From an uncultured Atopobiaceae bacterium (GTDB lineage Bacteria > Actinomycetota > Coriobacteriia > Coriobacteriales > Atopobiaceae): DNA of 64,000 nt. A program made the position numbers and the translations under genes. The stretch is taken from assembly GCA_944322145.1 (NCBI GenBank), contig CALUNW010000005.1, forward strand, positions 62,001 through 126,000, given 5' to 3'. This document shows, one piece after another, positions 1 through 64,000 of the stretch. A model generated the notes under the pieces. It had not been told where the DNA came from and searched no databases. It was given only the letters and a program-made list of their open reading frames with translations. The stretch's first letter is position 1; every line of letters begins with the position of its first letter.

Positions 1-92
1 TCTTTGTCATCGTGGTCATCTGGTTCTTCGTGCGCGGCGGGAAGATCCACATCGAGTTCCCCGGGCGCGACGACCACGACCGGCTCGACTAG
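1..92 (+). CDS. C-terminal end of a membrane protein (partial)
   Basis: Only the last 29 codons plus a TAG stop are in the window (frame from base 3). They encode a hydrophobic stretch (FVIVVIWFFV), then RGGK and a polar acidic tail ending in DDHDRLD, the pattern of a final transmembrane helix with a short cytoplasmic tail. The stop lies 15 bases before the NUDIX start, so the two genes are probably co-transcribed. Family cannot be told from this fragment. Confidence 0.55.
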   Translation, partial: FVIVVIWFFVRGGKIHIEFPGRDDHDRLD

Positions 93-107
93 GGAGGCGA
101 GAAGGAC

Positions 108-611
108 ATGGCGACGCCCGAGTTCATCCTTCGTCTGCGCGAGAAGATCGGCCACGACCTGCTGTGGCTCATCGGCGTGACGGCCTATGTCGAGGATTCC
201 GAGGGGCGCGTCCTTCTCGGCCGACGTGCCGACACCGGCGAGTGGGCGCTCGTCTACGGCATCAACGAGCCGGGCGAGGAGCCTGCTGACACCGTGATTC
301 GCGAGGTCGCCGAGGAGACGGGTGTCGACGTGGTGCCCGTCGCGCTGGCGAGCGTGAAGGCGGGGCGCCGCATGACGGTCTACGCCAACGGCGACCAGAC
401 GCAGTACCTGGACCTGAGCTTCGTCTGCCGGCTTGCCGAGGGCGGCAGCGCAGAGCCGCGCGTGGCCGACGACGAGAGCCTGGAGGTGGGCTGGTTTTCG
501 CCGGACGCGCTGCCCGAGCCGCTCGCCGCGTCGACGGTCGAGCGCATGGCGCGCATCGCCGCGTGGCGCGAGGCGGGCGCCGGAGCCGCGCTCTTCTCGT
601 TTGGCGGCTAG
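108..611 (+). CDS. NUDIX hydrolase, 167 aa
   Basis: Hydrolyses a nucleoside diphosphate linked to another group; the substrate cannot be predicted. A complete NUDIX box runs over about residues 51-73: Gly51, five residues, Glu57, then REVAEETGV (the REUXEEXGU part that binds the catalytic metal). Length and single-domain layout fit ADP-ribose or NTP-type NUDIX enzymes. The ATG at 108 follows GGGAGG with the recurrent GAGAAGGAC sequence between it and the start. A second copy of that sequence, on the other strand, lies within codons 34-37 (VLLG). A partial membrane-protein gene ends just upstream. Downstream is a convergent intergenic hairpin. Confidence 0.9.
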   Translation: MATPEFILRLREKIGHDLLWLIGVTAYVEDSEGRVLLGRRADTGEWALVYGINEPGEEPADTVIREVAEETGVDVVPVALASVKAGRRMTVYANGDQTQYLDLSFVCRLAEGGSAEPRVADDESLEVGWFSPDALPEPLAASTVERMARIAAWREAGAGAALFSFGG

Positions 612-648
612 CCGGGCGGCCGACATCCTTTCCGCTGTCGAGGGCTTC

Positions 649-791
649 TGAGGGTATGTACACCTGCCCCCGAGGGTATGTACACCCCGCACGGAAAGCC
701 CTCCGCGTTCTCGCAGGTCAGAGGCCTGACGAAAATCAGCGGAGGGCTTGCGAGTGTACATACCCTCGTGGGCAGGTGTACATACCCTCAG
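649..791. repeat. TGTACA inverted-repeat array, copy 1
   Basis: Two direct copies of GAGGGTATGTACACC spaced 22 bases apart (from about 651 and 673) face two inverted copies (GTGTACATACCCTC) ending at 791. An inner inverted repeat (AAGCCCTCCGC with GCGGAGGGCTT) lies in the loop. The element sits between convergent genes, so it could terminate both, but a 22-bp period (about two helical turns) of near-palindromic GGTATGTACACC units also looks like a protein-binding array. Related copies lie at 17928-18096 and 52474-52615. Confidence 0.8.
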
Positions 792-817
792 AGGACGTCT
801 GGCTGGGGCCGGGAGCG

Positions 818-3152: not shown

Positions 3153-3788
3153 CTACCGGATGAAGTTCGTCGCCTGGCCGGCCTCCTGCGCAGGCAGCTC
3201 CACGCCCGCCGCGCGGCCCGCCTCCAGGCACTTGAGCATCCACGCCATGTTGCGGCCCAGCTGGCGCATGGTCCAGAGGCCCTCGGCATCCTGTTCGGTT
3301 TCCGTGGCCGCGTTGCCGTGAACGTTGTTCCAGTAGCGCGAGCTCACCACGGGCATCTGCGCGATGGTGAAGAACTTGTTGATGTCATCGAAGGCCGAGG
3401 TGGTGCCGCCGCGTCGGGCGCTCGCCACGGCCGCCGCCGGCTTGTACGCGAGCACGTTCTTCTCGCCCGCGCGGCCGTTGCTGTAGAAGAGACGGTCCAT
3501 GAAGCCCAGCAGCGACGCCGCAGCGTGGGCGTAGTGCACCGGCGCGCCGAAGACGAAGCCGTCCGCCTCCGCCGCCTTGGGACGGAACTCGTTCACCACG
3601 TCGTCGAACGCGCAGCGGCCGAGCTTGGCGCAGCCGCTGCAGGCCACGCAGCCGCCCACGGGCCGCGCGCCGATCCAGAAGATCTCCGCCTCGACGCCCT
3701 CTGACTCGAGGGTGCGCGCCACTTCCTCGAGCGCGCGGTTGGTGCTCCCCGCCTTGTGCGGGCTGCCGTTCACGAGCATGACCTTCAT
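3153..3788 (-). CDS. NAD(P)H-dependent FMN reductase / flavodoxin-fold oxidoreductase, 211 aa
   Basis: MKVMLVNGSPHKAGSTNRAL at the start is the phosphate-binding loop of the NADPH-dependent FMN reductase family. GGCVACSGCAKLGRC (about residues 45-60) is the cysteine cluster of iron-sulfur-flavoprotein-like members, and FVFGAPVHYAHAAASLLGF is the second FMN contact region. It probably reduces quinones, azo or nitro compounds, or a flavin, in the cytoplasm; the cluster may be redox active or structural. It is read toward the TetR gene 138 bases downstream, which may control it. Confidence 0.9.
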   Translation of the reverse strand: MKVMLVNGSPHKAGSTNRALEEVARTLESEGVEAEIFWIGARPVGGCVACSGCAKLGRCAFDDVVNEFRPKAAEADGFVFGAPVHYAHAAASLLGFMDRLFYSNGRAGEKNVLAYKPAAAVASARRGGTTSAFDDINKFFTIAQMPVVSSRYWNNVHGNAATETEQDAEGLWTMRQLGRNMAWMLKCLEAGRAAGVELPAQEAGQATNFIR

Positions 3789-5980: not shown

Positions 5981-6033
5981 TGACCGAGAAGAACGGGTGC
6001 TCGGCTAGGGCGCCAGGAGGAAAGGAGATCAAC

Positions 6034-6783
6034 ATGGCAGTCAAGCAGACGGCGGGACGCGACCAGCTGGGCGAGCTCGCCCCTAAGTTCGCGCAGCTCA
6101 ACGATGACGTGCTCTTTGGCGAGGTATGGAGCCGCGAGGGGCAGCTCAGCCTCAAGATGCGCTCGATCGTGACCATGGTGACGCTCGTGGCCAAGGGCAT
6201 GGTGGACAGCTCGTTCGAGTATCACATGGCAACGGCGCGCAAGAACGGCGTCACGCGCGAGGAGATGGCGGAGATCCTCACACACGAGGCGTTCTATGCC
6301 GGCTGGCCCAACGCGTGGGCGGCGTTCCGCGTGGCGCTCAAGGTCTATGGGGACGAGGCGGACGCCGGCGAGGGCTCGTCCTTCTCGCCCATGTTCGGCC
6401 TGGGCAGCCCCAACGACGCGTACGCCCAGTACTTCATCGGCAACTCGTACCTGAACCCGCTGACCAGCGCGGACGAGTGCGGCGTGGGGCTCTCCAACGT
6501 CACCTTCGAGCCGGGCTGCCGCAACAACTGGCACGTGCACAATGCCGAGAAGGGCGGCGGGCAGATTCTCATCTGCACCGACGGGCGCGGCTGGTACCAG
6601 GAGTGGGGCAAGGACCCGCAGGAGCTCACGCCGGGCACCGTCGTGGTGATTCCGGCTGGCGTCAAGCACTGGCACGGCGCCGCGCGCGACGGCTGGTTCA
6701 GCCACATCGCCTTCGAGGCGCCGGGCGAGAACTGCAGCAACGAGTGGCTCGAGCCCGTCACCGACGAGCACTACCCCGCGTAA
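6034..6783 (+). CDS. carboxymuconolactone decarboxylase-cupin fusion protein, 249 aa
   Basis: Residues about 1-115 are an AhpD/CMD-type helical domain (RSIVTMVTLVAKGMVDSSFE, then YHMATARKNGVTREEMAEIL, ending in EAFYAGWPNAWAAF). Residues about 140-245 are a cupin barrel with metal-ligand motifs NNWHVHN, QILICTDGRGWYQ and GVKHWHGA. The CMD half lacks the CxxC of peroxidase-active AhpD, so a hydratase, lyase or isomerase role is more likely. The ATG at 6034 has a strong AGGAGGAAAGGAG site; an earlier ATG (5980) lies in the palindrome. The gene precedes an aldo/keto reductase, a common pairing in gut actinobacteria. Confidence 0.9.
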   Translation: MAVKQTAGRDQLGELAPKFAQLNDDVLFGEVWSREGQLSLKMRSIVTMVTLVAKGMVDSSFEYHMATARKNGVTREEMAEILTHEAFYAGWPNAWAAFRVALKVYGDEADAGEGSSFSPMFGLGSPNDAYAQYFIGNSYLNPLTSADECGVGLSNVTFEPGCRNNWHVHNAEKGGGQILICTDGRGWYQEWGKDPQELTPGTVVVIPAGVKHWHGAARDGWFSHIAFEAPGENCSNEWLEPVTDEHYPA

Positions 6784-6930: not shown

Positions 6931-7956
6931 ATGGCAGAGATGACGTACACGGCGCTCGGTCACTCCGGCATCAAGATCTCGCGGCTGTGCCTGGGCGGAA
7001 TGAGCTTCGGCAAGCCCTCGGCGGACTTCCACCAGTGGACGATCGGCCCGGATGAGACGCGCGCGGTGATCGCCCGTGCGCTCGAGCTGGGCGTGAACTT
7101 CATCGACACGGCCAACTGCTACGCGCACGGCACGAGCGAGGAGTACATCGGTGCCGCCCTGCGCGACCTGGGCGTGCCGCGCGACCAGGTGGTCCTGGCC
7201 AGCAAGGTCTTCTTCAACGAGGGCGGTCTCTCGCGCGAGGCGATCAACCGCGAGATCGACGGCACGCTCGCGCGCCTGGGCACCGACTACCTGGACCTCT
7301 ACATCATCCACCGCTTCGACTACGCCACGCCGATAGAGGAGACCATGGAGGCACTGGATGCCCTCGTGCGCGCGGGCAAGGTGCGCGCCCTCGGCGCGAG
7401 CGCGATGTACGCCTACCAGCTCCACAACATGCAGGTCGTGGCCGAGAAGAACGGCTGGACCCCGTTCACGAGCATGCAGTGCCACTACAACCTGCTCTAC
7501 CGCGAGGATGAACGCGAGATGATTCCCGTGTGCCGCCAGTATGACATGGCGCTGACGCCCTACAGCCCGCTCGCGTCCGGGCATCTGTGCCGTCCCACCT
7601 GGGACTCCGCGTCCAAGCGATCGACGACCGACGCCACGATGCGCAACAAGTACGACGCTGACCGAGAGCGCGACATGCCCATCGTCGAGCGCGCGGCCGA
7701 GCTGGCAGAGCGCCACGGCGTCCCCATGTCGCGCATCGCGCTCGCCTGGCATTGGGCGCGCGGCGTGGAGGCTCCCATCGTGGGCTGCGCCAAGCCCGAG
7801 CGCGTGGACGACGCGGTGGCCGCGCTCGACGTGACGCTCACGCCGGATGAGGTCGCCTACCTCGAGGAGCCCTACGTGGCGCACGAGCTCGTGGGCCCGG
7901 CCGCACGCCCCGGCGAGAAGCCCCTGGCGGGCACCACGAACCCCAACGCAAAGTAG
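6931..7956 (+). CDS. aldo/keto reductase, 341 aa
   Basis: NADPH-dependent carbonyl reductase of the (beta/alpha)8 AKR superfamily. The catalytic tetrad is visible as Asp59 and Tyr64 (FIDTANCYAHG), Lys92 (LASKVFF) and His127 (YIIHRFD). The C-terminal cofactor region reads PIVGCAKPERVDDAVAALD. Length fits the YajO/IolS-like branch. It lies 147 bases after the CMD-cupin gene behind the direct repeats and 31 bases before the metallo-hydrolase. The substrate is unknown; the neighbours suggest sugar, lactone or aromatic metabolism (inference). Confidence 0.93.
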   Translation: MAEMTYTALGHSGIKISRLCLGGMSFGKPSADFHQWTIGPDETRAVIARALELGVNFIDTANCYAHGTSEEYIGAALRDLGVPRDQVVLASKVFFNEGGLSREAINREIDGTLARLGTDYLDLYIIHRFDYATPIEETMEALDALVRAGKVRALGASAMYAYQLHNMQVVAEKNGWTPFTSMQCHYNLLYREDEREMIPVCRQYDMALTPYSPLASGHLCRPTWDSASKRSTTDATMRNKYDADRERDMPIVERAAELAERHGVPMSRIALAWHWARGVEAPIVGCAKPERVDDAVAALDVTLTPDEVAYLEEPYVAHELVGPAARPGEKPLAGTTNPNAK

Positions 7957-7987: not shown

Positions 7988-8803
7988 ATGGAAATGAAGA
8001 GCGTCGTCACAAACGAGAAGAACCAGGCGGTGCCGGCTGGCGTCGTGCCCCTGGGCCCAGAGGCGTTCGCGGCCCGCGCGGACACGGCGGTGACGTGGCT
8101 CGGCGGCGCGGGCATCCTGCTCAACGCCCGCGGCACGCGTGTCATGGTCGACCCCGTGCTCGAGGGCTTTGACATGCCCGTGCTCTTTGACGCGCCGGTG
8201 GCGCCCGCGAACGTGCCCGCGCTCGACGCGGTCCTGGTCACGCACATCGACAACGACCACTTCAGCCGTCCCACCTGCCATGACCTCGCCGGCGTGTGCC
8301 CCGCCTACCACGCTCCGCGCTACGTGGCAGAGGTCGCGCGCGAGGAAGGCCTGCCCGGCGTCGGCCACGACATCGGAGAGTCCTTCTCGGTGGGCGCGGT
8401 GACGGCACGTCTCACGCCCGCATGGCACACCTGGCAAAACGAGTCCAGCAAGTGGGCCTGGCGCACGTGGGCGCGCGAGGACTACTGCGGCTACTGGCTC
8501 GACACGCCGGACGGATCGATTTGGCTGCCCGGCGACTCCCGGCTTCTCCCGGAGCACTTGGAGATGCCAGAGCCCGGACTCATCCTCCTGGACTTCTCCG
8601 ACAACGAGTGGCACATCACCTTCGACGGGGCGGTGCTCCTTGCCAACACCTATCCGAGCGCGCGGCTGCTGTGCATCCACTGGGGCACGGTCGACGCCCC
8701 GGACTGGTCGACCTTCAACGGCGACCCTCGGGCGCTTGCCGCGCACGTGGACAATCCGGGTCGCGTGCTTGCTCCGCTGCCCGGCGAGCCGGTCGTCCTG
8801 TAG
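7988..8803 (+). CDS. metallo-beta-lactamase-fold hydrolase (UlaG-like), 271 aa
   Basis: WLGGAGILLNARGTRVMVDP is the first strand pair of the UlaG/COG2220 branch, followed by VLVTHIDNDHF in place of the usual THxHxDH. His86, Asp90 and His91 remain, but the second histidine is Asp88. Later ligands are plausible (TPAWHTW, PGDSRL, CIHWG). Chemistry would be hydrolysis of a phosphorylated sugar lactone or similar; the Asp substitution could change metal choice. The ATG at 7988 is chosen because the reading frame before it overlaps the AKR gene. It is co-directional with the AKR. Confidence 0.85.
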   Translation: MEMKSVVTNEKNQAVPAGVVPLGPEAFAARADTAVTWLGGAGILLNARGTRVMVDPVLEGFDMPVLFDAPVAPANVPALDAVLVTHIDNDHFSRPTCHDLAGVCPAYHAPRYVAEVAREEGLPGVGHDIGESFSVGAVTARLTPAWHTWQNESSKWAWRTWAREDYCGYWLDTPDGSIWLPGDSRLLPEHLEMPEPGLILLDFSDNEWHITFDGAVLLANTYPSARLLCIHWGTVDAPDWSTFNGDPRALAAHVDNPGRVLAPLPGEPVVL

Positions 8804-8838
8804 GGCGGGATCGGGAGCCGCGTTCTTCTCGGCATTGT

Positions 8839-9918: not shown

Positions 9919-9943
9919 CCTTGGCGAGAAGAACGTCCTTCTC
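9919..9943. repeat. head-to-head pair of the GAGAAGRAC motif
   Basis: GGCGAGAAGAAC is followed at once by GTCCTTCTCGCC, so the two copies form a small inverted repeat immediately upstream of the flavodoxin start and before the sdpI-like gene. It shows the paired arrangement of the recurrent motif at its clearest. Confidence 0.7.
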
Positions 9944-10097
9944 GCCAGTGTACGTGGTGCCGACCCTGATCGACGTAACCCGTACCGAGCCCTTACGTTG
10001 CCGGCGGACGGTGGTTCCGCAGCGGCGTGCGGCTTGGTTGCAAGGCGGCCGTGGAAAGGGGTATAAACGCGCATCATGTTCGTCTGAGGAGGCTGAC

Positions 10098-10787
10098 ATG
10101 GCTGGATTGAACCTCGAGACGCGCGACAAGGCGCTGTGGGCGGTCCTTCTCGTCCTGGTTTTGGCGAGCTCGGCGGCCTACCTTTTCTGGGCGCTGCCCG
10201 CGATGCCGGAGACCGTGCCCACGCACTGGGGCGTGGACGGCTCCGTCGACGGCTGGAGCGACAAGGGCTCCACGGTCTTCATGGGCGTCGTCATGCCGCT
10301 GCTCATGCTTGCCCTGCTCTTCGCGGTGCCGTACTTTGATCCGCGCGGGGCCAGCTTCAACCGCTTCAAGGGTATCTACCAGGGGTTCTCGGCAGCCTTT
10401 ACCGTGTTCATGATCGCCGTGGGCTGGCTCACGCCTGCCACGGCGCTCGGTCTCGTCCCGGAGAGCGGGTCTGCCGTGGGAGCGCTCGTCTTTGGCTTCA
10501 TGGGACTGCTCCTCGTGGGCCTTGGCATTGCGATGCCGCGCATCGAGCCCAACTACACGTTCGGCGTCCGCGTTCCGTGGGCGCTCGACGACCCGGAGAA
10601 CTGGCGGCGCACGCATCGCTTTGCCGGCCCGGTCTTCGTGGTCATGGGCGCGGTGATGTGCGCGATGGCGTTTCTCGGGTCGACGCTGCCCGAGGCGGCG
10701 CTGGTGGCGACGCTGCTTGTGACGCTTCTCGGCGGCCTGGCGCTGGTCACCCTCTACAGCTTCCTGATCTGGAGGCGCGTTCTGTAA
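10098..10787 (+). CDS. SdpI/DUF1648-family membrane protein, 229 aa
   Basis: The N-terminal section carries the DUF1648 signature (PETVPTHWGVDGSVDGWSDK) after a first helix, with six predicted helices overall. The SdpI signature PNYTFGVRVPWALDDPENWR (about residues 153-172) precedes THRFAG. In Bacillus, SdpI confers immunity to the SdpC killing factor and takes part in signalling; here no sdpC-like gene is seen. The ATG at 10098 has GAGGAGG upstream. It is followed by a two-component pair, so it may be a target or partner of that system. Its TAA (10785-10787) lies inside the palindrome. Confidence 0.88.
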   Translation: MAGLNLETRDKALWAVLLVLVLASSAAYLFWALPAMPETVPTHWGVDGSVDGWSDKGSTVFMGVVMPLLMLALLFAVPYFDPRGASFNRFKGIYQGFSAAFTVFMIAVGWLTPATALGLVPESGSAVGALVFGFMGLLLVGLGIAMPRIEPNYTFGVRVPWALDDPENWRRTHRFAGPVFVVMGAVMCAMAFLGSTLPEAALVATLLVTLLGGLALVTLYSFLIWRRVL

Positions 10788-10917: not shown

Positions 10918-11592
10918 ATGGCGCGGATTCTGGTGGTGGACGACGAGCGGGCGATCACGGAGACGCTCGAGCGGGTGCTCGCGCTCGACGGGCACGTGGT
11001 GACGTCCGTGTGCGACCCCGCGCGCGTGCCGGGCATGGACCTCGACCGCTACGACCTGCTGATTCTTGACGTCATGATGCCGGGGCTCGACGGCTTTGAG
11101 CTGCTGCGGACCATCCGCTCGCGCGTGGACGCGCCGGTGCTGTTTCTCACGGCGCGCATTGCCGAGAAGGACGCGGTGCTGGGTCTCGGCCTGGGCGCGG
11201 ACGACTACCTCCGCAAGCCCTTCGGGGTCGACGAGCTGCGCGCCAAGGTGGCGGCGCACCTGCGCCGGGAGCGTCGTCCGCGCGTGAGCGCGCTCGCCTT
11301 TGACGCGGGCGGCACGGAGCTGCGCGTCCTTCTCGCTTCCAAGCAGATCGAGGCGGGCGGACAGGTCGTGCCGCTCACTGCCACCGAATACGAGATCTGC
11401 GAGTTTCTCGCCCGACGCCCTGGGCAGGTGTTCTCGCGCTCCCAGCTGCGCGAGCACGTGCTCGGCTGGGAGAGCGCCGCGGGCGACGACGCCATCTCGA
11501 TGCACGTGAGCCGCGCGCGCAGAAAGCTCGCGGCCGCCGGGGTGGACCCGATCGAAACCGTCTGGAAGGTGGGATACAAATGGCAGCTGTGA
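10918..11592 (+). CDS. OmpR-family response regulator, 224 aa
   Basis: The receiver domain (1-115) has the acidic pocket VVDDE, phospho-acceptor Asp51 (LLILDVMMPG), the conserved Thr/Ala at LFLTARI and Lys at YLRKPFG. The C-terminal winged helix (about 130-224) ends EYEICEFLARRPGQVFSRSQ...VSRARRKL...VWKVGYKW. It is intact and should bind DNA. Its last 13 bases overlap the start of the kinase gene. GAGAGGGGAC precedes the ATG. Likely targets include the SdpI-like gene just upstream (inference). Confidence 0.95.
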   Translation: MARILVVDDERAITETLERVLALDGHVVTSVCDPARVPGMDLDRYDLLILDVMMPGLDGFELLRTIRSRVDAPVLFLTARIAEKDAVLGLGLGADDYLRKPFGVDELRAKVAAHLRRERRPRVSALAFDAGGTELRVLLASKQIEAGGQVVPLTATEYEICEFLARRPGQVFSRSQLREHVLGWESAAGDDAISMHVSRARRKLAAAGVDPIETVWKVGYKWQL

Positions 11593-12554
11593 ATGAGACC
11601 ACCGGGCGGCGCGCCTGGCGTGGCCTGCCGATGGGCTTTGTGGTCGGCCGCTACTTCGTGTACGTGATCGTGGGGCTTCTGGCGATCGTGCTCTGGGCGC
11701 AGCTTGCGCTCAAGGGGATGCTGCGGTCGGGCGAGGTCTATGCGGCGGACTACGGCTCCGAGCACGTCGAGGAGGTGCTGCAGAGGCTTGCCGCGCAGAG
11801 CGAGTTCGACCCGGAGGCGATACCCTCGGCGTACTGGTACCTGTTGGTGGACGAGAAGGGCAACGAGCTTGCGAGCGACCTGGGCGACGAGTACTCGATT
11901 CTGCGCTCTGTGGCGGAGAGCCTCAAGGGGACGACGTCGTTTCCCGGCTGGTACGTCGAGGAGCTGCCGCGCTACTACGACATCTGGGGGAGCGCCGTGC
12001 ACCACTACCGGTACGCCCGGCTCGACAACGGCACCATCGTCCTTCTCGCGTACCAGAACCTGCCGCAGTACGCTACGCGCGAGCTGCGCGACAGCCGGCC
12101 GAACGTCCTGGTGCAGCTGGGGTGGACCTGCGTGGGAGCGGGCGCGGCGCTGATCGTGGGCGTGGGCGCCTGGGCCGCGCACGTGATCTCGCGCAAGCTC
12201 CGGCTGGCGGTCGAGGCTGCGGCGCGCATCGAGGCCTCCGACCTGGACTCCCCGGTGGGCCGCTCCAACGTGCGCCAGGTGAACGACCTGCTTGCTGCGA
12301 TGGAGCGCATGCGGGCGGCCCTGCGCGAGACGCTCGACGCGCGCTGGCGGGCCGAGGAGGAACGCCGCGAAACCGTGACGCAGCTCGCGCACGAGCTCAA
12401 GACGCCGCTCACGGTGGTGAGCGCCAACGCGGAGCTGCTCGCGCGGGGCGAGGCCACGGGCCCGGACGCCGAGGCCGCGGCCGCCGCGGTGGTCGACGCC
12501 GCCCGCGAGCTCGACGATTGTGCCTCCCGCATCATGTCCGCCGCCTTCGAATGA
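11580..12554 (+). CDS. sensor histidine kinase lacking the ATP-binding domain, 324 aa
   Basis: Two membrane helices (about 24-44 and 180-200) enclose a 135-residue extracytoplasmic sensor region. A HAMP-like linker follows, then the dimerisation/phosphoacceptor helix with His271 in QLAHELKTPLTVVSANAELL. The protein ends about 50 residues later (RIMSAAFE). The whole HATPase_c domain with N, G1 and G2 boxes, normally about 110 more residues, is missing. The TGA lies at the edge of the palindrome 12551-12585, beyond which the opposite-strand ABC-F gene begins. It therefore cannot autophosphorylate alone. It may be a pseudogene remnant, or phosphorylated in trans. Confidence 0.9.
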   Translation: MAAVNETTGRRAWRGLPMGFVVGRYFVYVIVGLLAIVLWAQLALKGMLRSGEVYAADYGSEHVEEVLQRLAAQSEFDPEAIPSAYWYLLVDEKGNELASDLGDEYSILRSVAESLKGTTSFPGWYVEELPRYYDIWGSAVHHYRYARLDNGTIVLLAYQNLPQYATRELRDSRPNVLVQLGWTCVGAGAALIVGVGAWAAHVISRKLRLAVEAAARIEASDLDSPVGRSNVRQVNDLLAAMERMRAALRETLDARWRAEEERRETVTQLAHELKTPLTVVSANAELLARGEATGPDAEAAAAAVVDAARELDDCASRIMSAAFE

Positions 12555-20083: not shown

Positions 20084-20125
20084 GGATGTGCCGAGAAGGA
20101 CATGTAGTCGAGAAGAACGCGCCGC

Positions 20126-26821: not shown

Positions 26822-26984
26822 TGGGCCTCGATTCGACGGAGGGCAAATGGTAGCCGTATACCCGCATATCGGGCCCGCGGGCGGGCGTCACGACATCCCC
26901 GCATCGCTTCGCGCGGCCTGAAGGCGCGCGTTCTTCTCGCCCGACGGCGTATAGTTGATGCAAGCCCAAGGAGAGGAGACGATC

Positions 26985-45421: not shown

Positions 45422-46579
45422 GTGACCTCAGCCCCCGGCCCCGCCGCCTCCCGCCCCGCCGCCCTCGACGCGCTCTCCGACCAGCACCGCGTGCGCGACT
45501 TTCTCGCCCGCGCCCTGGCCGAGGGCTGCCTCAGCCACGCCTATCTCTTCGTGGGCGCGCCCGGCTCGGGCAAGCACGAGGCCGCCGAGGCCCTCGCCAA
45601 GTGCGTCGTCTGCCCGCGGGGCGGCGACGGAACCTGCGACGAGTGCCGGCGCGTGGCGCACCGCACCCACCCGGACGTCCACTGGCTGGAGCCGGGGAGT
45701 GCCACCGGCTACCTCGTGGCGCAGGTCCGCGAGCTCATCGAGGACGCAAGCCTCACCCCCGTGCGCGCCAAGACCAAGCTCTACGTTCTCGAGCGCGCAG
45801 AGCTGCTGCGGGGCGCTGCCGCAAATGCGCTGCTCAAGACCCTCGAGGAGCCGCCCGAGGGCGTGATGTTCGTCCTGTGCGCCCGCACGACCGCGGCCAT
45901 GCTGCCCACCATCGTCTCGCGCTGCCAGCAGGTGCCCTTCCGCGCGGCCTCCGCGCGCTCCGGCGTCGAGGCGGTCCGCCGCGCGGTCCCCGCGACCGAG
46001 GCGGAGGCGCGCGTGGCGCTCGCCGTCGCGGGCACCCCGGCGCGCGCAGCCGAGTTCCTGCAGTCCACGAGCCGCCGGCAGGTCCGGCGCCTGGTGGTCT
46101 CCGCGCTCGACGCGCTCCCCCGCGACGACGCCTGGGACGTCCTTCTCGCCGCGCGCGAGATCGTGTCCGCCGTGGCCGTGCCGCTGGCAGACGTCAAGCA
46201 GGCGCAGGAGGACGCGCTCAAGGAGAGTCAGGACTTCCTCACCTCGGCCGCGCTCAAGCAGGTTGCCGACGCCAACAAGCGCGAGCTCACCGCCCGGGAG
46301 CGTTCGGGTATGATGGAAGCCCTGGCGGCAGCCGAGTCCCTCCTGCGCGACGCGCTCGTACGCAGCGAGGGCGTGGACGAGGACATCGTCAACGACGACG
46401 CGGCGGCCACCGTGGACCGCATCGCCGCCGCGAGCGACACACCGGCCGTCCTGCGCGCGCTCGACGCCGTGGCGCGCGCCGCGGACGACCTTTCGCACAA
46501 CGTATCACCCCAGCTGACCCTCGAGGTCATGCTGCTCCGCATCAAGGAGGCACTCGCATGCCCACCATCATCCCGGTGA
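45422..46579 (+). CDS. holB: DNA polymerase III delta' subunit, about 385 aa
   Basis: Clamp-loader subunit. AYLFVGAPGSGKHEAAEALA is the (non-hydrolysing) P-loop region. CVVCPRGGDGTCDECRRVAH gives the zinc-finger cysteines. THPDVHWLEP, then KLYVLERAELLRGAAANALL and KTLEEPPEGVMFVLCA, complete the AAA+ core. Possible starts are GTG 45407, 45413 and 45422; the last fits the GGGAG spacing. It overlaps ricT by 22 bases. Runs in the tmk-holB-ricT order known from Firmicutes. Confidence 0.93.
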   Translation: MTSAPGPAASRPAALDALSDQHRVRDFLARALAEGCLSHAYLFVGAPGSGKHEAAEALAKCVVCPRGGDGTCDECRRVAHRTHPDVHWLEPGSATGYLVAQVRELIEDASLTPVRAKTKLYVLERAELLRGAAANALLKTLEEPPEGVMFVLCARTTAAMLPTIVSRCQQVPFRAASARSGVEAVRRAVPATEAEARVALAVAGTPARAAEFLQSTSRRQVRRLVVSALDALPRDDAWDVLLAAREIVSAVAVPLADVKQAQEDALKESQDFLTSAALKQVADANKRELTARERSGMMEALAAAESLLRDALVRSEGVDEDIVNDDAAATVDRIAAASDTPAVLRALDAVARAADDLSHNVSPQLTLEVMLLRIKEALACPPSSR

Positions 46580-48084: not shown

Positions 48085-48137
48085 CTGCCGCAGGTCCTTC
48101 TCGGCCACGCGCGCTCGCCCTGGTGCCTGTGCTCTCC

Positions 48138-48260: not shown

Positions 48261-48290
48261 GAAAAATGCGCCGAGAAGGACCTCCCGCTG

Positions 48291-52473: not shown

Positions 52474-52615
52474 GAGGGTATGTACACCCGCCCATGAGGG
52501 TATGTACACCTCGTCAGATGGTTCTTCTCGCATCTCAGCAGCTCACGGGCCTAGCGAGAAGAGCGGGCGGGTCTGGCGACCGTACATACCCTCATGGGCG
52601 GGTGCACATACCCTC
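52474..52615. repeat. TGTACA inverted-repeat array, copy 3
   Basis: Two direct GAGGGTATGTACACC units 22 bases apart face GTACATACCCTC and GTGCACATACCCTC at the same spacing. The loop carries GTTCTTCTC (52521) and GAGAAGAGC (52556), an inverted motif pair with one mismatch. Between divergent genes, like copy 2. Confidence 0.85.
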
Positions 52616-54310: not shown

Positions 54311-55185
54311 TGGCGCAGGCCCCCGCGGGCGGCACGCTCAGCGTCGTCGGAACCCCCATAGGAAACCTCGAGGACGCCTCGCCCCGCGTGATCCGCACGC
54401 TCGGCGAGGCGGACCTCGTGCTCTGCGAGGACACGCGCGTCACCGGCAAGCTCATGAGCGCCTTCGGCCTGCACGTGCGCCTGGAGCGCTGCGACGAGAA
54501 CGTCATGGCCGAGAAGGTCGCGGGCGTGCTGGATCGCCTGGCAGCGGGGGAGCGCGTGGCCTTCGTCTCCGACGCGGGCATGCCGGGCGTGAGCGACCCC
54601 GGCCAGCGGCTCGTCGACGCCGCGCTCGACGCGGGCCTGCGCGTGGAGGTGGTGCCGGGACCGAGCGCCGTCACCTGCGCGCTCGTGGCGTCCGGCCTTG
54701 CGAGCGAGCACTTCTTCTTCGAGGGGTTCCTTCCGCGGAAGGGCGGCGCTCAGCGCTCCCGGCTCGAGGAGCTGGCGGCGGTTCCGGGGACGCTCGTGGT
54801 CTACGAGAGCCCGCGCCGCGCGGCGGAGACGCTCGCGCGAATCGCGGAGGTGATGCCGGGCCGGCGCGTGGCGCTCGTGCGCGAGCTCACCAAGCTGCAC
54901 GAGGAGGTCGTGCGCGGGGAGGCCTCCGAGCTCGCGGAGCTGGTGGCGGCACGCGGGGAGCTCCGAGGCGAGTGCGCGATCGTGATCGGGGCGCCCGAGG
55001 CCGACGAGCTCGAGGCACGCCGCGCGGCGGCGTCCGGGCCCGAGCGGACGCTCGAGGAGGAGATCGCCGCGGGCCTGGCGTCCGGCGAGCCCAAGAGCGC
55101 GCTCGCCAAGCGGCTGGCCAAGTCCTTCTCGCTTCCCCGCGCCGAGGTCTACGACAAGGTGGTCGCCGCCGCGGCGGGGGAGTGA
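54310..55185 (+). CDS. rsmI: 16S rRNA (cytidine(1402)-2'-O)-methyltransferase, 291 aa
   Basis: Tetrapyrrole-methylase-fold RNA methyltransferase. LSVVGTPIGNLEDASPRVIR at the start, LCEDTRVTGKLMSAFGLHVR, AFVSDAGMPGVSDPGQRLVD, VVPGPSAVTCALVASGLAS and FEGFLPRKGGAQRSRLEEL are the standard RsmI blocks. It modifies C1402 of 16S rRNA in the decoding centre. ATG overlaps the preceding TGA (TGATG), so translation is coupled to the GH5-like gene. Confidence 0.95.
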   Translation: MAQAPAGGTLSVVGTPIGNLEDASPRVIRTLGEADLVLCEDTRVTGKLMSAFGLHVRLERCDENVMAEKVAGVLDRLAAGERVAFVSDAGMPGVSDPGQRLVDAALDAGLRVEVVPGPSAVTCALVASGLASEHFFFEGFLPRKGGAQRSRLEELAAVPGTLVVYESPRRAAETLARIAEVMPGRRVALVRELTKLHEEVVRGEASELAELVAARGELRGECAIVIGAPEADELEARRAAASGPERTLEEEIAAGLASGEPKSALAKRLAKSFSLPRAEVYDKVVAAAAGE

Positions 55186-59043: not shown

Positions 59044-59079
59044 GTGGGGCGTCCTTCTCGGCATCGCCCTGGGTTTCCC

Positions 59080-59264: not shown

Positions 59265-59292
59265 ACGGCCGAGAAGGACGCCCCTCCGCGGA

Positions 59293-60471
59293 TCAGCCTG
59301 CGTCCGCGGGACGCGCGTCGAGGTCGGCGCCGTGCTCGTGCGCGAGGTGACGCCACTGCGCCTCTGCCGCGAGCCTGTACGCAAACCGAGGGACGGGCGG
59401 TCGCACTTCTATTGCTCCGGCGTTCGCGCCCGCGAGCAGGGCCATTATCAGTTGGTCGATCGCCTCGGAGACGCCTCGGCGCATCATCCCCATGCGTGGC
59501 GTCTTGGCAACGGGTAGCACCATGCCGCCCGCGCCCACGGCCACCCCGCCCGACCAGCAGAGCCCCGCCGCGGTACAGAAGCCCTCGATTACCGAGAAGG
59601 ACGGCGCTATCTGCTCCGCCTCATAGAACCCCATGTTGGCGAGGGCATAGACCCGCGCGCCGGAGGCGAGCTCGTCGCGCGCGCGAACCAGCAGGTCAAC
59701 CATGCCGCTCGGCAGCGCGTCCACATAGAGCGGGTAGCCCAGGACCACGGCGTCGCAGCCGGCGAGCGCACCCACGTCGCGCACCGTCGCGCGCACGAGC
59801 TCCGGAGCGTCGACGCCGGCCATCCGCGCGTAGACGGGCAGCGCCTCGGCGAGGTCGCCGAGCAGGTGCGCGGTGGCGGAGCGGCCTCCGCGCGGGCTCG
59901 CGTTCACGAGGGCGACGCGACGAGGAACGCCTCGCGCGGGCACGGGCCGCTCGGCGGCGTCGACGGCGGGCGCGTCATTCTCGGTGCCCGCGCTCTTCTC
60001 GTTTGAGGGAAACCGGACGCCTGTCAGGCGCGCGCCCAGGTTGAGAGCGTTGGCGGCGGCGATGGTCCGGGCGCATGAGCGCTCGGCCTCCGTGGACGGT
60101 CCGTAGAGCCGGAAGTTGAGCGTCAGCTTGTGGTCAGCGTAGCGCAAGCGATGATGCATCTGGCCGTCAGCGATGCGGAAGTTAGGGTGCAGGTAGCCGA
60201 TCGAGCGGTCGAGCGCGCGCTTGGCGAGCGGGGAGAGCCATCCGAAGGTCATGCGCGACACCACCGTCAGCTCGTCCGTTCGGGCGAGAAGAACGCCGAG
60301 GTCGCCAAGGGAGTCGCGCATGACGCAGGCGCCGGGAGTGCGCACCCAGCAGCCGAAGCAGCCCGTGCAGTCATGTGCGGAGGCGAGGTCCTCGCGGCAG
60401 AGCGCGACGTCGCAGCGCACGCCCGCCGCGGCGAGCTGCGCGCGCGTGAGGTCGCAGATGAACGTGCGCAT
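59293..60471 (-). CDS. tandem flavodoxin/NADPH-dependent FMN reductase-like protein, 392 aa
   Basis: Two flavodoxin-like halves. The C half (about 190-392) has the phosphate loop VALVNASPRGGRSATAHLLG and the second contact VVLGYPLYVDALPSGMVDLL. The N half has the Cys-rich loop CTGCFGCWVRTPGACVMRDS and VVSRMTFGWLSPLAKRALDR but lacks the first strand and phosphate loop, as if its N-terminus had been lost or replaced (MRTFICDLTRAQLAAAG). Only the C half is likely to bind FMN fully. ATG 60471 has GGGAGGGG. Function as a reductase is inferred; the partner is unknown. Confidence 0.8.
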   Translation of the reverse strand: MRTFICDLTRAQLAAAGVRCDVALCREDLASAHDCTGCFGCWVRTPGACVMRDSLGDLGVLLARTDELTVVSRMTFGWLSPLAKRALDRSIGYLHPNFRIADGQMHHRLRYADHKLTLNFRLYGPSTEAERSCARTIAAANALNLGARLTGVRFPSNEKSAGTENDAPAVDAAERPVPARGVPRRVALVNASPRGGRSATAHLLGDLAEALPVYARMAGVDAPELVRATVRDVGALAGCDAVVLGYPLYVDALPSGMVDLLVRARDELASGARVYALANMGFYEAEQIAPSFSVIEGFCTAAGLCWSGGVAVGAGGMVLPVAKTPRMGMMRRGVSEAIDQLIMALLAGANAGAIEVRPPVPRFAYRLAAEAQWRHLAHEHGADLDARPADAG

Positions 60472-60646: not shown

Positions 60647-61378
60647 ATGCGTATCGGGCGCGTTGCCGCCGAGCTGGGGGAGGGCCTCGCCGAGGTCCTG
60701 TGGCCCACGCGCTGCGTGGGGTGCGACCAGCCTGGCGAGCTCATCTGCTCTGAGTGCCGCGCCGCGCTGCCGTGGATCGAGCAGCGCCTGGCCTGCCCCT
60801 CCTGTGGCGCGCCCTTCGGGTACCTCACCTGCACCGAGTGCGGCGGCTTGTGGCCCACGCGCGCCGCGATAGCCGCGCTCGGCTTCCACGGAACGCCCGC
60901 CCGCATGGTCACCTGCCTCAAGGACGGCCATGAGCTGCGCCTGGCTCCCGTGATTGCCGCCGCCCTGCTCACCGCCCTCGAGGAGGCGTCCGCCTGGCCC
61001 GCTCGCGACGGCCTCCCGCGCTTCTCGCCCGCCGCGACGGACGGCGTCTGCTTTGTCCCCGCGACCTCCGCCGCCTATGCGCGCCGCGGCTTTGACCACA
61101 TGGAGCTCGTGGCGCGCGAGCTCTGCGCGGCCTCGGGCCTCCCGCTCGCCGACGTGCTCGTGCGCCCCCGCGCTCGCGACCAGCGCGTCCTCGGCCGAGA
61201 AGAGCGAGCCGCCAACCTCGAGGGAACGATGTACGCCCGCGGGGACGTCGCGGGCGCGCGCCTGCTGCTGCTCGACGACGTCACCACGACGGGGGCTTCC
61301 GTCGCGGAGGCGACGCGCGCCCTGCTCGCCCGCGGCGCGGCGTCGGTCACGGCCTGCGTCCTTGCCCGCGTGTGGTAG
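60647..61378 (+). CDS. comF: ComF-family phosphoribosyltransferase-like protein, 243 aa
   Basis: N-terminal zinc ribbons (CVGCDQPGELICSEC; CPSCGAPFGYLTCTEC), then a phosphoribosyltransferase domain with GVCFVPATSAAYARRGFDHM and the PRPP loop LLLLDDVTTTGASVAEATRA. ComFC-type proteins are needed for natural transformation in B. subtilis and other bacteria, where they act with the ComFA helicase in DNA uptake; ComFA is not in this window. ATG 60647 follows GGAAGGGGG. Confidence 0.92.
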   Translation: MRIGRVAAELGEGLAEVLWPTRCVGCDQPGELICSECRAALPWIEQRLACPSCGAPFGYLTCTECGGLWPTRAAIAALGFHGTPARMVTCLKDGHELRLAPVIAAALLTALEEASAWPARDGLPRFSPAATDGVCFVPATSAAYARRGFDHMELVARELCAASGLPLADVLVRPRARDQRVLGREERAANLEGTMYARGDVAGARLLLLDDVTTTGASVAEATRALLARGAASVTACVLARVW

Positions 61379-61411
61379 CCGGGCGAGAAGAACGCGCAGT
61401 CGCGGCCATCC

Positions 61412-61470: not shown

Positions 61471-61530
61471 GCGCGTCTCCACCGCCCGCCGTCGCGTGCC
61501 GCCGCCCGCCGCGCACCGGCACGCCCGCGC

Positions 61531-61842
61531 GGTATACTAGGCAGACGTCTCGACCAGGTCTGTGGTTGCGGGCGCCGGCGCCGCCGGGGCCCAAGTCCAT
61601 GTCAGACGAGGACAAAGGGATCCACGTAAGCGCGGGCGTGCGCGTTCGCGCGATCATGGCTCGTCCTAGAGGTAAGTCGCACCGCCCGTCATACGCAAGA
61701 GGCATCCGGCCTCGCGGGCGAGAGGGGCTAGAGTGGAGGTGCCGCGGCGCCGCAAGCGACGTCCCCAGTGCGCGGGTGTGGGGTCAAAGACCAGGTCAGC
61801 TGGGAGAGGCGCTCGATGAGACCACGTAGACGGGAGTATGCA
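61531..61842 (+). other. leader region of the lipoprotein gene; possible RNA element or small ORF
   Basis: TATACT at 61531 looks like a -10, and the following 300 bases are rich in stems (GGCGCCGGCGCC near 61571; GCGCGTTCGCGC near 61640; GGTGCCGCGGCGCC near 61740). An ATG at 61599 opens a 76-codon frame of low plausibility (MSDEDKGIHVSAGVRVRAIM). AGTGGAGGTGCCGCGG near 61733 recalls a T-box sequence but the match is weak. Either a structured leader or nothing; not assigned. Confidence 0.3.
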
Positions 61843-62910
61843 ATGGAGCACTCGCGTTTTCACATCATGGCGGGGGCCCTCGCGGCCGCCCTCTCCCTGT
61901 CCGCCCTGACCGGCTGCTCGGGAATCGCCGACGTCCCCGGCGAGGTCGGCGGCCTCTTCCAGAGCATCGTCAAGGACGTGACCGACCCGGTCTCCGTCGC
62001 GGAGGCCCGCGCGGCGCGCCACGACTCGCTCATGGCCGCGGTGAGCGACGAGGACCTCGTCACCCCCGGGACCCTGACGGTCGGCCTTCAGGTCACGGGC
62101 ACCGCGCCGCTGGTCATAGCCGGCTCCGACGGTGAGTACGGCGGCATCGACGTCGAGACCGCCTATGCGCTCGCCGACCAGCTCGGCCTGGGCGCCGTGG
62201 AGTTCGTCCCGGTCCAGAGCGTCGCCGAGGGCGTCGAGACCTGCGACGTCGTCATGGGCGCCAGCTCTGAGGAGCCGGACTGCGCGGTCGTTGGCTCCTA
62301 CGTGCAGAGCGCGCTGGGCGTCTTCAGCGCAACGGACGTGGCGTCGGTCCCCGTGAGCGCCGCCGACCTCGGCGGGGCGACGATCGGGATGCAGGCGGGC
62401 TCGGTCTCCCAGGCGTCCCTGGGTCGCCTCAACCTCGGCAACGCCGAGCAGACCTTCTCCAACCTCAACGAGGCCTTCGAGGCGCTGGCCGCGGGCACGG
62501 TCGACTACGTCGTCTGCGACGCCTACTCGGGCGCCTACCTCGCCCACGCCTACGACGGCGTGTCCTTTGCGGGCACCATCGACGCCCCGCTGCCCGTGGG
62601 CATCGCAGTCGCGTCCGACGCCTCGTCGCTGATCGGCAACGTCCAGATGGCGCTCGACGAGATCCAGACCAACGGCGTCGCCGCAATCGGTCGCGCGCGC
62701 TGGGTCGGCGACTTCCCCGCGCTCACGGAGGCCACGGTCGTGTCCGGCCTGCCCGATCCGCAGGAGCAGGAGCAGGGCGAGCAGGACGATCAGGCCGCGG
62801 ACGATGAGGGCGAGGCAAGCTCCGACGGCGAGTCCGAGGACGGCACCCTCATCGGCACCGCGGTCGCCGACGACGGCACGGATGAGTCCGGCGATCTTCT
62901 CGCCCCGTGA
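61843..62910 (+). CDS. substrate-binding lipoprotein, probable amino acid type, 355 aa
   Basis: Lipobox SALTGCSG (Cys near residue 24) after a short signal sequence. The middle section is a periplasmic-binding type 2 domain (GTLTVGLQVTGTAPLVIAGS, YGGIDVETAYALADQLGLGA, then GGATIGMQAGSVSQASLGRL and YVVCDAYSGAYLAHAYDGVS), usually for polar amino acids. An acidic, Gln/Glu/Asp-rich tail of about 60 residues follows. No permease or ATPase gene is next to it, so it may serve a remote transporter or act as a sensor. ATG 61843 has GGGAG. Confidence 0.85.
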   Translation: MEHSRFHIMAGALAAALSLSALTGCSGIADVPGEVGGLFQSIVKDVTDPVSVAEARAARHDSLMAAVSDEDLVTPGTLTVGLQVTGTAPLVIAGSDGEYGGIDVETAYALADQLGLGAVEFVPVQSVAEGVETCDVVMGASSEEPDCAVVGSYVQSALGVFSATDVASVPVSAADLGGATIGMQAGSVSQASLGRLNLGNAEQTFSNLNEAFEALAAGTVDYVVCDAYSGAYLAHAYDGVSFAGTIDAPLPVGIAVASDASSLIGNVQMALDEIQTNGVAAIGRARWVGDFPALTEATVVSGLPDPQEQEQGEQDDQAADDEGEASSDGESEDGTLIGTAVADDGTDESGDLLAP

Positions 62911-63048
62911 CGCACGCCGAAAGGAGCATGCCGCTCAGGCTGTTGGTGACGACGTGAGGGAGGAATTGCCAGCTCGCATTTGGGTATCAATGTCCTAGGA
63001 GCGGTCGCGCCCGCCGCGCCCGCCCATGGCAATCGTTAGGAGGTTCGC

Positions 63049-63642
63049 ATGGTTGACATCAAGATCTCGGGCCGCAAGGTGGGAGTCTCCGACTCTCTTC
63101 GCGATCACGTTGAGGAGAAGGTCGGCAACGCGCTCAAGGTGTTCGATATCAAGCCCATGACCTGCGATGTCGTTCTGCGCGTCGACAAGAACCCCTCCAA
63201 CCCCGAGCGCAAGACGTGCGAGGTCACGGTGTTTGTCCGTGACAACGTCGTCCGCGTGGTCGCGAGCTCCGACGACATGTTCGCCGCCATCGACGACGCC
63301 GCCGACAAGGTCACCCGCCAGCTGCGCAAGTACAAGACCCGCGTCATCGACCGCCGCCAGCGCGTCGCCGCCGCCAAGAGCGGCACGGTCACCCAGGAGG
63401 ACCTCGCCAGCCTCATCGAGCCGGGTCCCGACGAGACCGAGGACGACCAGCTCGTGCGCGAGAAGTACATCGACCTGTTCCCCATGACGGAGGAGGAGGC
63501 CCTCGTCCAGACCGACCTCATCGGCCACGACTTCTACGTCTTCACCAACGCCACCACCGGTCTGGTCAACGTCATCTACCACCGCAAGAACGGCGGGTAC
63601 GGCATCATCAAGCCCAAGATCGAGGAAGAGAATGAGCAGTAG
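63049..63642 (+). CDS. hpf: ribosome hibernation promoting factor, long form, 197 aa
   Basis: Dimerises 70S ribosomes into inactive 100S particles in stationary phase. N-terminal domain VDIKISGRKVGVSDSLRDHV ... RVDKNPSNPERKTCEVTVFV binds the 30S; the C-terminal domain (about 135-197) has FPMTEEEALVQTDLIGHDFY then VFTNATTGLVNVIYHRKNGG, the dimerisation module of long Hpf. AGGAGG precedes the ATG. Overlaps the start of degV by 11 bases. Confidence 0.95.
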   Translation: MVDIKISGRKVGVSDSLRDHVEEKVGNALKVFDIKPMTCDVVLRVDKNPSNPERKTCEVTVFVRDNVVRVVASSDDMFAAIDDAADKVTRQLRKYKTRVIDRRQRVAAAKSGTVTQEDLASLIEPGPDETEDDQLVREKYIDLFPMTEEEALVQTDLIGHDFYVFTNATTGLVNVIYHRKNGGYGIIKPKIEEENEQ

Positions 63643-64000
63643 CGATACCACCAGCACCACCGCAATCGAGGACGCGGCCGCCGAGCAGGGGCTCGCGTCA
63701 GACACCAACGCCCAGGCGTCGCAGGAGGCTGCGCGCCTGGGCCGCGCGTATCATCGCGCGTCCAACGTGAGGATCATCGTCGACTCCTGCGCCGACTTCG
63801 CGCCCGGCGTCGCCGAGGCGCTCGGGGTGGAGGTCGTGAACTTCACCTACGTCATGGGCGGGGAGGAGCACGTCGACGACCTCTGGAAGTCCATGACCCC
63901 CAAGGAGTTCTACGACCGCATGCGCGCGGGCGAGACGGCCACCACCTCGGCCGTCACCCCGGGTCACTACCTCGAGGTCTTCGAGCGCGCGGCCGAGGAG
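63632..64000 (+). CDS. DegV-family fatty-acid-binding protein (partial, N-terminal 123 codons)
   Basis: Frame from ATG 63632, overlapping hpf, to the window end. After an Ala/Ser-rich leader of about 40 residues the DegV signature begins: VRIIVDSCADFAPGVAEALG, VEVVNFTYVMGGEEHVDD, then MTPKEFYDRMRAGETATTSA and VTPGHYLEVFERAAEE. DegV proteins bind fatty acids and, as FakB, present them to a FakA kinase. Downstream part is outside the window. Confidence 0.9.
   Translation, partial: MSSSDTTSTTAIEDAAAEQGLASDTNAQASQEAARLGRAYHRASNVRIIVDSCADFAPGVAEALGVEVVNFTYVMGGEEHVDDLWKSMTPKEFYDRMRAGETATTSAVTPGHYLEVFERAAEE

Follow-up and report, generated by a model that had tools for sequence, protein, structure and literature searches.

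An enriched motif of Atopobiaceae, SCGAGAAGRAC, as a probable dialect of a DNA uptake sequence in Coriobacteriales

Uptake sequences are known in only two families, according to a 2025 paper (PMC12616744). The DNA uptake sequence (DUS) of Neisseriaceae is present in ca. 1,900 copies in genomes of 2.2-2.3 Mb, with intergenic regions permissive and genic sites occurring too, and Frye and co-workers report a fixed core, lineage-specific flanks, and some family members without the motif (PMC3630211). The uptake signal sequence (USS) of Pasteurellaceae combines a strict core with weaker flanks, two dialects, and genome-wide enrichment, and its receptor is unsettled (PMC12616744). Micrococcus luteus is transformable with comEA and comEC and without other known competence genes, the tad genes being absolutely needed, and the term "uptake sequence" is absent from the text of the paper that describes this (PMC4322843). 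Here, we analyze a 64-kb stretch of DNA with 69% GC (hereafter the window; G000:C5:62001-126000, G000 being the host genome), in which a first-pass annotation had pointed out the motif SCGAGAAGRAC and likened it to the uptake sequences of Neisseria and Pasteurellaceae. We conclude that SCGAGAAGRAC is probably the local variant of an uptake sequence that has CGAGAAGNNC as its core and would be shared among many Atopobiaceae and one or more further lineages of Coriobacteriales.

The motif resembles the DUS in being a short, non-palindromic, high-copy word (149-1,151 copies of SCGAGAAGRAC per genome in the host genus), in having intergenic as well as genic sites and dialects around a conserved core, and in being absent from some members of the family. 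It differs from the DUS in its unrelated sequence, its high-GC Gram-positive hosts, and the scarcity of inverted pairs; moreover, no PilB-type T2SSE ATPase was found in the 95%-complete host genome, whose sole T2SSE matches are of the TadA type and the PilT family. We know of no counterpart of ComP for the Coriobacteriales motif. A strict core, weaker flanks, dialects, and genome-wide enrichment are shared with the USS; the sequence, however, is different, and the AT-rich flanking blocks that the USS carries are not evident in an intergenic logo of 148 host sites. Flp/tad-dependent transformation of M. luteus is similar in that an actinobacterium carries comEA, comEC, and tad. Among the papers listed in searches of open-licence literature, none described transformation or an uptake sequence for Coriobacteriia, and an earlier report is possible.

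Abundance, core, and placement of the motif

GAGAAGRAC occurs in the window 35 times on the forward and 35 times on the reverse strand. The first-pass annotation had estimated about 65 occurrences by eye, and each of the 23 positions that it listed is no more than 9 bases away from a match start; its chance expectation of about one was too low, an order-3 Markov model giving nearer four, which leaves the excess unaffected. CGAGAAGRAC was counted 33 times forward and 34 times in reverse, and SCGAGAAGRAC 56 times (29 forward, 27 reverse), while dinucleotide-preserving shuffles of the window yielded a mean of 0.23 and a maximum of 2 copies, none of 100 reaching the observed number. Under the order-3 model, GAGAAGGAC was observed 38 times versus 2.3 expected and GAGAAGAAC 32 times versus 1.9. 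The host genome (2.40 Mb, 25 contigs) contains 1,055 copies of SCGAGAAGRAC, ca. 59 times the 18 copies (9 + 9) of a reversed-pattern control, so the genome-wide count is far from expectation; the strands are again nearly equal (535/520), as had been claimed for the window. The looser SCGAGAAGNNC is present in 2,513 copies versus 297 for its reversed control. A host sample consisting of the window and 50 further stretches (992 kb; 984 kb net, as 8 kb were taken twice) holds 643 motif sites versus 8.8 expected, with mean densities of 0.65 per kb for CGAGAAGRAC and 1.5 per kb for CGAGAAGNNC, of which the window has 123 copies (69 + 54).

In this sample, the base that follows the two-base gap after CGAGAAG is C in 1,488 cases, G in 140, A in 33, and T in 25, and all 16 gap dinucleotides exceed the order-3 expectation, GA and AA about eighteenfold. 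Between genes, GCGAGAAGAAC is found in 86 copies versus 0.085 expected; among its one-base variants only positions 1 (C 45, A 11, T 11), 9 (G 42), and 10 (G 10) vary freely, and all other substitutions are represented by 0-4 copies each. The gap-base and variant counts identify CGAGAAGNNC as the conserved core and GGSCGAGAAGRACG as the full local form. Thus, the enrichment of SCGAGAAGRAC is real, but the motif had been drawn too narrowly.

The spacing of sites is near random, the coefficient of variation of 430 gaps being 1.01 with five motif-poor stretches left out; 20 gaps are shorter than 50 bp (12.9 expected) and 6 measure 50-100 bp (12.5 expected). Short tandem arrays of the motif with 13-18 bp spacing were seen at G000:C1:50220-50298, C1:277486-277522, and L094:11472-11511.

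Home-made gene calls on 595 kb of the host genome placed 123 of 325 SCGAGAAGRAC sites between genes, 198 within them, and 4 at their edges, which corresponds to 1.46 per kb of intergenic versus 0.39 per kb of genic DNA. In a larger sample, 180 kb of intergenic sequence contained 198 sites and 813 kb of genic sequence contained 289 (1.10 versus 0.36 per kb). Distances below 20 bp separate 47 of 151 sites from the 3' end of a gene and 14 of 135 from a 5' end. The genic sites of the 595 kb are read as EKD/EKN (99), VLL[AG] (55), or xFS (35), the remaining three frames accounting for 9; one avoided frame would require the arginine codons AGA and AGR. The earlier statement that the motif is used in different reading frames therefore holds for several frames and for intergenic DNA, with the restriction that 189 of the 198 genic sites fall in just three.

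The 289 genic sites of the larger sample were compared with two kinds of shuffles. Codon-order shuffles gave a mean of 15.8 copies, and synonymous-codon shuffles that preserve the protein a mean of 93 (maximum 107 in 20 runs), leaving a threefold excess. In 92 kb of the host aligned with the sister genome G156 at 92% identity, 78 of 95 sites were intact, while local exact 10-mers survived at a frequency of 0.52; the reciprocal comparison gave 78 of 98 and a control of 0.51, the gap being slightly overstated in that "intact" permits either base at R and the control does not. Third codon positions differed in 6 of 226 cases inside the motif (R left out) versus 268 of 1,998 adjacent to it (P 1.6e-7), and intergenic positions in 9 of 240 versus 175 of 1,626 (P 2.8e-4). 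When the window was aligned with 18 congener loci, a smaller comparison, 32 of the 50 instances of a site remained intact, with 16.6 expected exact; these instances repeat the same window sites. We conclude that selection acts on DNA; the third-position constraint and the excess over protein-preserving shuffles uphold the earlier view that the protein is not its object.

Dialects among relatives

KsgA places the host among the Atopobiaceae, within Thermophilibacter or beside it; the protein is 94-96% identical to those of two uncultured Atopobiaceae metagenome-assembled genomes and 79-87% identical to those of the following 16 loci, most of which belong to Thermophilibacter or 'Olsenella'. SCGAGAAGRAC is enriched in all 31 genomes of the genus examined, with 149 copies in G125 and 450-1,151 in the others (reversed controls 10-30). 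G125, with its weak motif, is 99% complete and comEC-positive and is a candidate for recent motif loss. Among named relatives, the counts are 880 and 754 for T. provencensis, 682 for T. gallinarum, 587 for T. mediterraneus, 921 for Olsenella sp. An285, 474 for Parafannyhessea umbonata, 254 for Tractidigestivibacter scatoligenes, 140 for Atopobium sp. BS2, 34 for Olsenella profusa F0195, and 21 for Collinsella aerofaciens.

The flanks vary from genus to genus (genera are designated g, families f, below). GGCGAGAAG is present in 370-1,462 copies in the host genus, 816-970 in g42, 618-884 in g43, 537-654 in g49, and 253-502 in g30, and in just 61 and 78 copies in g31. The counts of TGCCGAGAA are 733 and 739 in g31 (controls 23 and 24), 71-412 in the host genus, and 40-73 in g42. 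The intergenic form of the motif is CGGGCGAGAAG-NR-CG in g42, CGGCGAGAAG-NN-CGT in g43, TGGCGAGAAG-NA-C in g30 (samples of 45 and 54% GC), and TGCCGAGAAACCC in g31, these logos from outside the host genus resting on 25-33 intergenic sites each. Sister genera retain the core with differing flanks, that is, they have dialects.

When gapped words (a 7-mer, NN, and one base, in at least 10 copies) were ranked, CGAGAAGNNC came first in samples of G125, g30, g43, g49, g17, and g28, second in the host genome and g31, third in g42, and fifth in G156; the words that outrank it in the host genome and in G156 are fragments of a repeat element. It was 12th in g44, 35th in G046 (g20, of the host family), 42nd in g41, and 1,079th in g36; in pooled Collinsella-type loci (11, representing a single gene region) it was 120th. 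Outside the host family, it headed the 3,337 words of G026 (family f3; 95-kb sample, 49% GC), with the form TGCCGAGAAG at 23 intergenic sites, and it was second among 193 words of G039 (f9, 29-kb sample) and 39th in G233 (f10). A count of SCGAGAAGNNC in 297 genomes of the order gave 1,290-1,517 copies in four genomes of f10/g82 (controls 181-219), 965 in G039 (control 225), and 790 in G026 (control 121); in genomes of f2, the ratio to control varies from less than one to about four.

Other enriched words were also noticed. In G233 (g82), loci L228-L232 contain GCGGGGANNA, TCAGCGGNNA, and CCGCTGANNC, strongly enriched alongside the CGAGAAGNNC signal. In G081 (genus g36), GAGTGGCAGTG and its complement were considered as a further dialect and rejected, the copies being confined to three spots (L134:3027-3827, L135:11157-11402, L136:17843-17898) with 18-64 bp spacing, as in a local repeat.

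Import genes and competing explanations

In the host genome, comEA adjoins comEC (L166). The ComEA protein has SLBB and helix-hairpin-helix domains and matches TIGR00426 above cut-off, ComEC has Competence and metallo-beta-lactamase domains and matches TIGR00360 above cut-off, and dprA is present. A tad locus (L164) encodes TadE and a TadA-type ATPase, the latter by its best NCBIfam match, which is below cut-off. A PilT-family retraction ATPase (L165:8869-9930, TIGR01420 above cut-off), for which no PilB partner was found, could serve the tad pilus. A DNA import route in the host is plausible, because comEA, comEC, and tad are all present, as in transformable M. luteus. An NCBIfam search of seven open reading frames of the window yielded little. 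The gene at 60647, which the first-pass annotation had called comF and considered consistent with competence though not proof of it, is ComF-like by its Pfam domains; its NCBIfam comF match (TIGR00201, E 1.2e-17) is below cut-off, and we likewise regard it as a putative competence-associated gene that does not prove competence.

A DNA uptake sequence is favored because it explains the density, the use of two strands, the intergenic excess, the strict core, the dialects, and the constraint together, features of which Chi-like signals or nucleoid sites account for just some. Over-representation, non-polarity, placement, DNA-level constraint, core and dialects, and gene presence were observed directly; sequence-specific uptake, a receptor, and a drive are what we infer. 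A surface or pilus DNA receptor, possibly one of the tad/Flp minor pilins or else ComEA, would prefer motif-bearing fragments; the tad pilus and ComEA-ComEC would import one strand, and DprA with a putative RecA would recombine it. Since motif-bearing DNA would be imported preferentially, motifs born by mutation would spread through the population and build up on both strands where they are least harmful, i.e., between genes and in the EKD/EKN, VLLA, and xFS frames. We also lean, with somewhat less assurance than for the local dialect, to a third, independently evolved uptake sequence system, which would be the first in Gram-positives. Such a system would extend through the order with CGAGAAGNNC at its core, differ in dialect between genera, and have been lost repeatedly; in place of a ComP-type type IVa pilus, it would rely on ComEA/ComEC and a tad/Flp pilus, to which the lone PilT-family ATPase would perhaps contribute. 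The original comparison with Neisseria and Pasteurellaceae is partly supported, by the count, non-polarity, use of several frames and intergenic DNA, selection on DNA, and dialects; its hairpin argument is weak, and comEC does not discriminate.

Several observations weigh against this interpretation. comEC was found in 137 of 140 genomes of the family, motif-poor ones included (the three without it are 57, 73, and 88% complete), and some T2SSE ATPase was likewise found in 137 of 140, a lower bound, as the 12 best candidates per genome were scored. Both are equally common in motif-poor (g46, g36, g41, g24, g33) and motif-rich genera, and the genes do not predict the motif. Long full-length PilB-like T2SSE matches occur in motif-poor g46 and also in g39 and G060 of g28, which are intermediate, so there is no clear contrast. 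Inverted pairs, which in uptake sequences can act as terminators, are few, unlike in the Neisseria DUS, where they are common: close neighbors (<60 bp) among 416 CGAGAAGRAC sites form 10 facing, 3 back-to-back, 7 forward-forward, and 8 reverse-reverse pairs, and of the 10 facing pairs, 3 repeat the same hairpin almost identically in L082 and one lies in the window (9924-9945). Pairing inside hairpins, which had been counted in favor of uptake, is therefore real but rare. Some coding copies of CGAGAAGNNC are ordinary codon usage, the 1,141 genic copies comparing with 212 in codon-order and 447 in protein-preserving shuffles. In f10/g51, low counts of SCGAGAAGNNC (36-446) reach up to about sevenfold over control, which suggests how high codon usage alone may raise this looser word, and moderate ratios prove nothing.

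Mobile DNA, in which an uptake sequence should be scarcer than in resident DNA, gives a mixed picture. Phages carry fewer copies, yet they are not motif-free. CGAGAAGRAC density is 0.17-0.20 per kb in two stretches of contig C12, L167 (a prophage by its proteins) and L168 (proteins not classified), and 0.10-0.15 per kb in the GC-poor L177 and L169, versus the sample mean given above; 24 viral loci related to the host prophage contain 55 sites in 454 kb (0.12 per kb), with 4.4 expected. L167 nevertheless holds 4 sites versus 0.16 expected, and the related phage loci L184-L186 and L190 have 7-9 sites in 17-21 kb (0.38-0.43 per kb) versus 0.1-0.2 expected. No depletion was seen in codon-atypical genes of the host (the bottom two fifths by codon typicality have 0.75 and 0.80 per kb, the top two 0.60), and 16 of the 643 sites (2.5%) sit in repeats resembling miniature inverted-repeat transposable elements (MITEs), which total 2,420 bp.

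A Chi-like signal, read by an AddAB/AdnAB/RecBCD-type nuclease and protecting the cell's own DNA in repair, is an unlikely alternative. Chi, like the FtsK-orienting polar sequences (KOPS) and SpoIIIE recognition sequences (SRS), is a short, over-represented, asymmetric word, and an abundant non-palindromic motif with a core common to genera, lineage variation, and constraint on DNA would suit it. Chi sites are, however, shorter, few-fold enriched, and usually leading-strand biased (which is common, not universal), whereas the present motif shows a far larger excess, is concentrated between genes, and, unlike Chi and KOPS/SRS, is not polar along replichores. On a 2.63-Mb T. provencensis scaffold, whose order was taken as given, the best two-arc split of 95 of 96 CCGAGAAGAAC sites was 65% versus 64% in permutations (P 0.34), and the strands formed 51 runs versus 47.6 expected. 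In this one scaffolded relative, the earlier argument from two-way orientation against Chi- or KOPS-like polar sites is thus supported.

Slightly less probable again is a site for a chromosome-organizing or nucleoid protein whose preference drifted between genera. Near-random spacing and constraint on the motif are as this would predict, but a protein with ca. 1,000 strict 10-11 bp sites inside and outside genes would be required, and we know of no protein family with such sites; dialect flanks would, in addition, demand repeated co-change of protein and site without a drive. We consider a DNA methyltransferase target or other epigenetic mark very improbable: asymmetric sites are typical of some such enzymes, but restriction targets are usually avoided, and the motif is enriched about sixtyfold. 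That the motif follows from the encoded proteins and their codon choice (E-K-D/N, V-L-L), or from the spread of a repeat, is hardly credible. EKD/EKN and VLL[AG] are indeed the commonest readings and the MITE-like repeat does contain sites, but intergenic DNA has its own 198 sites, protein-preserving shuffles account for one third of the genic ones, and the share in the repeat is small, so that this reading is refuted as the main cause. Finally, an FtsK/SpoIIIE-orienting sequence has almost no probability left, its one recommendation being that GAGAAGG resembles GAGAAGGG, the B. subtilis SRS, whereas the two strands alternate along the window, slightly more than at random (37 runs versus 28.9 expected), and are mixed in T. 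provencensis, GAGAAGGG itself is split 89/89 in the sampled host stretches, and a KOPS-like polarity considered for contig C1 is contradicted by the genome totals, the mixed T. provencensis sites, and later parts of the contig that hold both strands (5/4 in C1:200001-220000, 6/6 in C1:300001-320000), which refutes these forms as polar guides.

Sites in the window, repeats, and implications

Table 1. Motif sites, ComF-like gene, and MITE-like copies, in window coordinates unless a locus is named
Feature	Position	Strand	Remark
SCGAGAAGRAC site	97..107	+	
SCGAGAAGRAC site	210..220	-	
SCGAGAAGRAC site	3456..3466	-	
SCGAGAAGRAC site	5984..5994	+	
SCGAGAAGRAC site	6378..6388	-	
SCGAGAAGRAC site	7442..7452	+	
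CGAGAAGRAC site	8014..8023	+	without S
SCGAGAAGRAC site	8380..8390	-	
SCGAGAAGRAC site	8822..8832	-	
SCGAGAAGRAC site	9924..9934	+	left arm of facing pair
SCGAGAAGRAC site	9935..9945	-	right arm of facing pair
CGAGAAGRAC site	10143..10152	-	without S
SCGAGAAGRAC site	11162..11172	+	
SCGAGAAGRAC site	11326..11336	-	
SCGAGAAGRAC site	12039..12049	-	
SCGAGAAGRAC site	13000..13010	+	
SCGAGAAGRAC site	13404..13414	-	
SCGAGAAGRAC site	14657..14667	+	
SCGAGAAGRAC site	14926..14936	+	
CGAGAAGRAC site	16238..16247	-	without S
SCGAGAAGRAC site	17999..18009	-	
SCGAGAAGRAC site	18033..18043	+	
CGAGAAGRAC site	18213..18222	-	without S
SCGAGAAGRAC site	19068..19078	-	
SCGAGAAGRAC site	20091..20101	+	
CGAGAAGRAC site	20109..20118	+	without S
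CGAGAAGRAC site	20951..20960	-	without S
SCGAGAAGRAC site	21690..21700	+	
SCGAGAAGRAC site	23062..23072	-	
SCGAGAAGRAC site	23781..23791	+	
CGAGAAGRAC site	24260..24269	-	without S
CGAGAAGRAC site	25871..25880	+	without S
SCGAGAAGRAC site	26781..26791	+	
SCGAGAAGRAC site	26930..26940	-	
SCGAGAAGRAC site	29895..29905	+	
SCGAGAAGRAC site	30586..30596	-	
CGAGAAGRAC site	31326..31335	-	without S
CGAGAAGRAC site	31357..31366	-	without S
SCGAGAAGRAC site	32150..32160	+	
SCGAGAAGRAC site	32680..32690	-	
SCGAGAAGRAC site	34031..34041	+	
SCGAGAAGRAC site	34459..34469	-	
SCGAGAAGRAC site	35463..35473	+	
CGAGAAGRAC site	36423..36432	+	without S
SCGAGAAGRAC site	37399..37409	+	
SCGAGAAGRAC site	38321..38331	+	
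SCGAGAAGRAC site	39358..39368	-	
SCGAGAAGRAC site	39948..39958	+	
SCGAGAAGRAC site	40749..40759	+	
SCGAGAAGRAC site	42465..42475	-	
SCGAGAAGRAC site	42749..42759	+	
SCGAGAAGRAC site	44606..44616	-	
SCGAGAAGRAC site	46139..46149	-	
SCGAGAAGRAC site	47582..47592	+	
SCGAGAAGRAC site	48094..48104	-	
SCGAGAAGRAC site	48271..48281	+	
SCGAGAAGRAC site	50786..50796	+	
SCGAGAAGRAC site	51039..51049	-	
SCGAGAAGRAC site	51417..51427	-	
SCGAGAAGRAC site	52332..52342	-	
SCGAGAAGRAC site	52521..52531	-	within MITE-like repeat 52474-52593
SCGAGAAGRAC site	55122..55132	-	
SCGAGAAGRAC site	59051..59061	-	
SCGAGAAGRAC site	59269..59279	+	
SCGAGAAGRAC site	59592..59602	+	
SCGAGAAGRAC site	60284..60294	+	
ComF-like gene	60647..61378	+	Pfam DZR_2 (double zinc ribbon) and Pribosyltran (phosphoribosyltransferase) above cut-off
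SCGAGAAGRAC site	61383..61393	+	directly beyond ComF-like gene end
MITE-like element copy	650-789		
MITE-like element copy	17930-17985		one side only
MITE-like element copy	52474-52593		
MITE-like element copies	L081, L087, L173, others		

The MITE-like element is dispersed, ca. 100-140 bp long, and bounded by the inverted ends GAGGGTATGTAC...GTACATACCCTC; several copies have the motif in mid-element. A local repeat in L082 consists of hairpins at 114-145, 2209-2240, and 3578-3609, within 3.5 kb, each formed by two facing motifs and a 12-bp loop. The prophage of contig C12 has genes for major head, portal, head-tail adaptor, Dit, and endolysin proteins (L167; also the end of L091), and one of its proteins matches an abortive-infection family (L167:16348-17331).

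If the motif is an uptake sequence, these anaerobic Gram-positive bacteria of the gut, with their different pilus, would provide a third case, and it would allow uptake drive to be tested against selection for self-recognition. It would predict natural transformation in genera for which few genetic tools are available, and the motif would be worth adding to DNA intended for transforming them. The many species with graded motif strength, apparent losses included, would provide a natural series.

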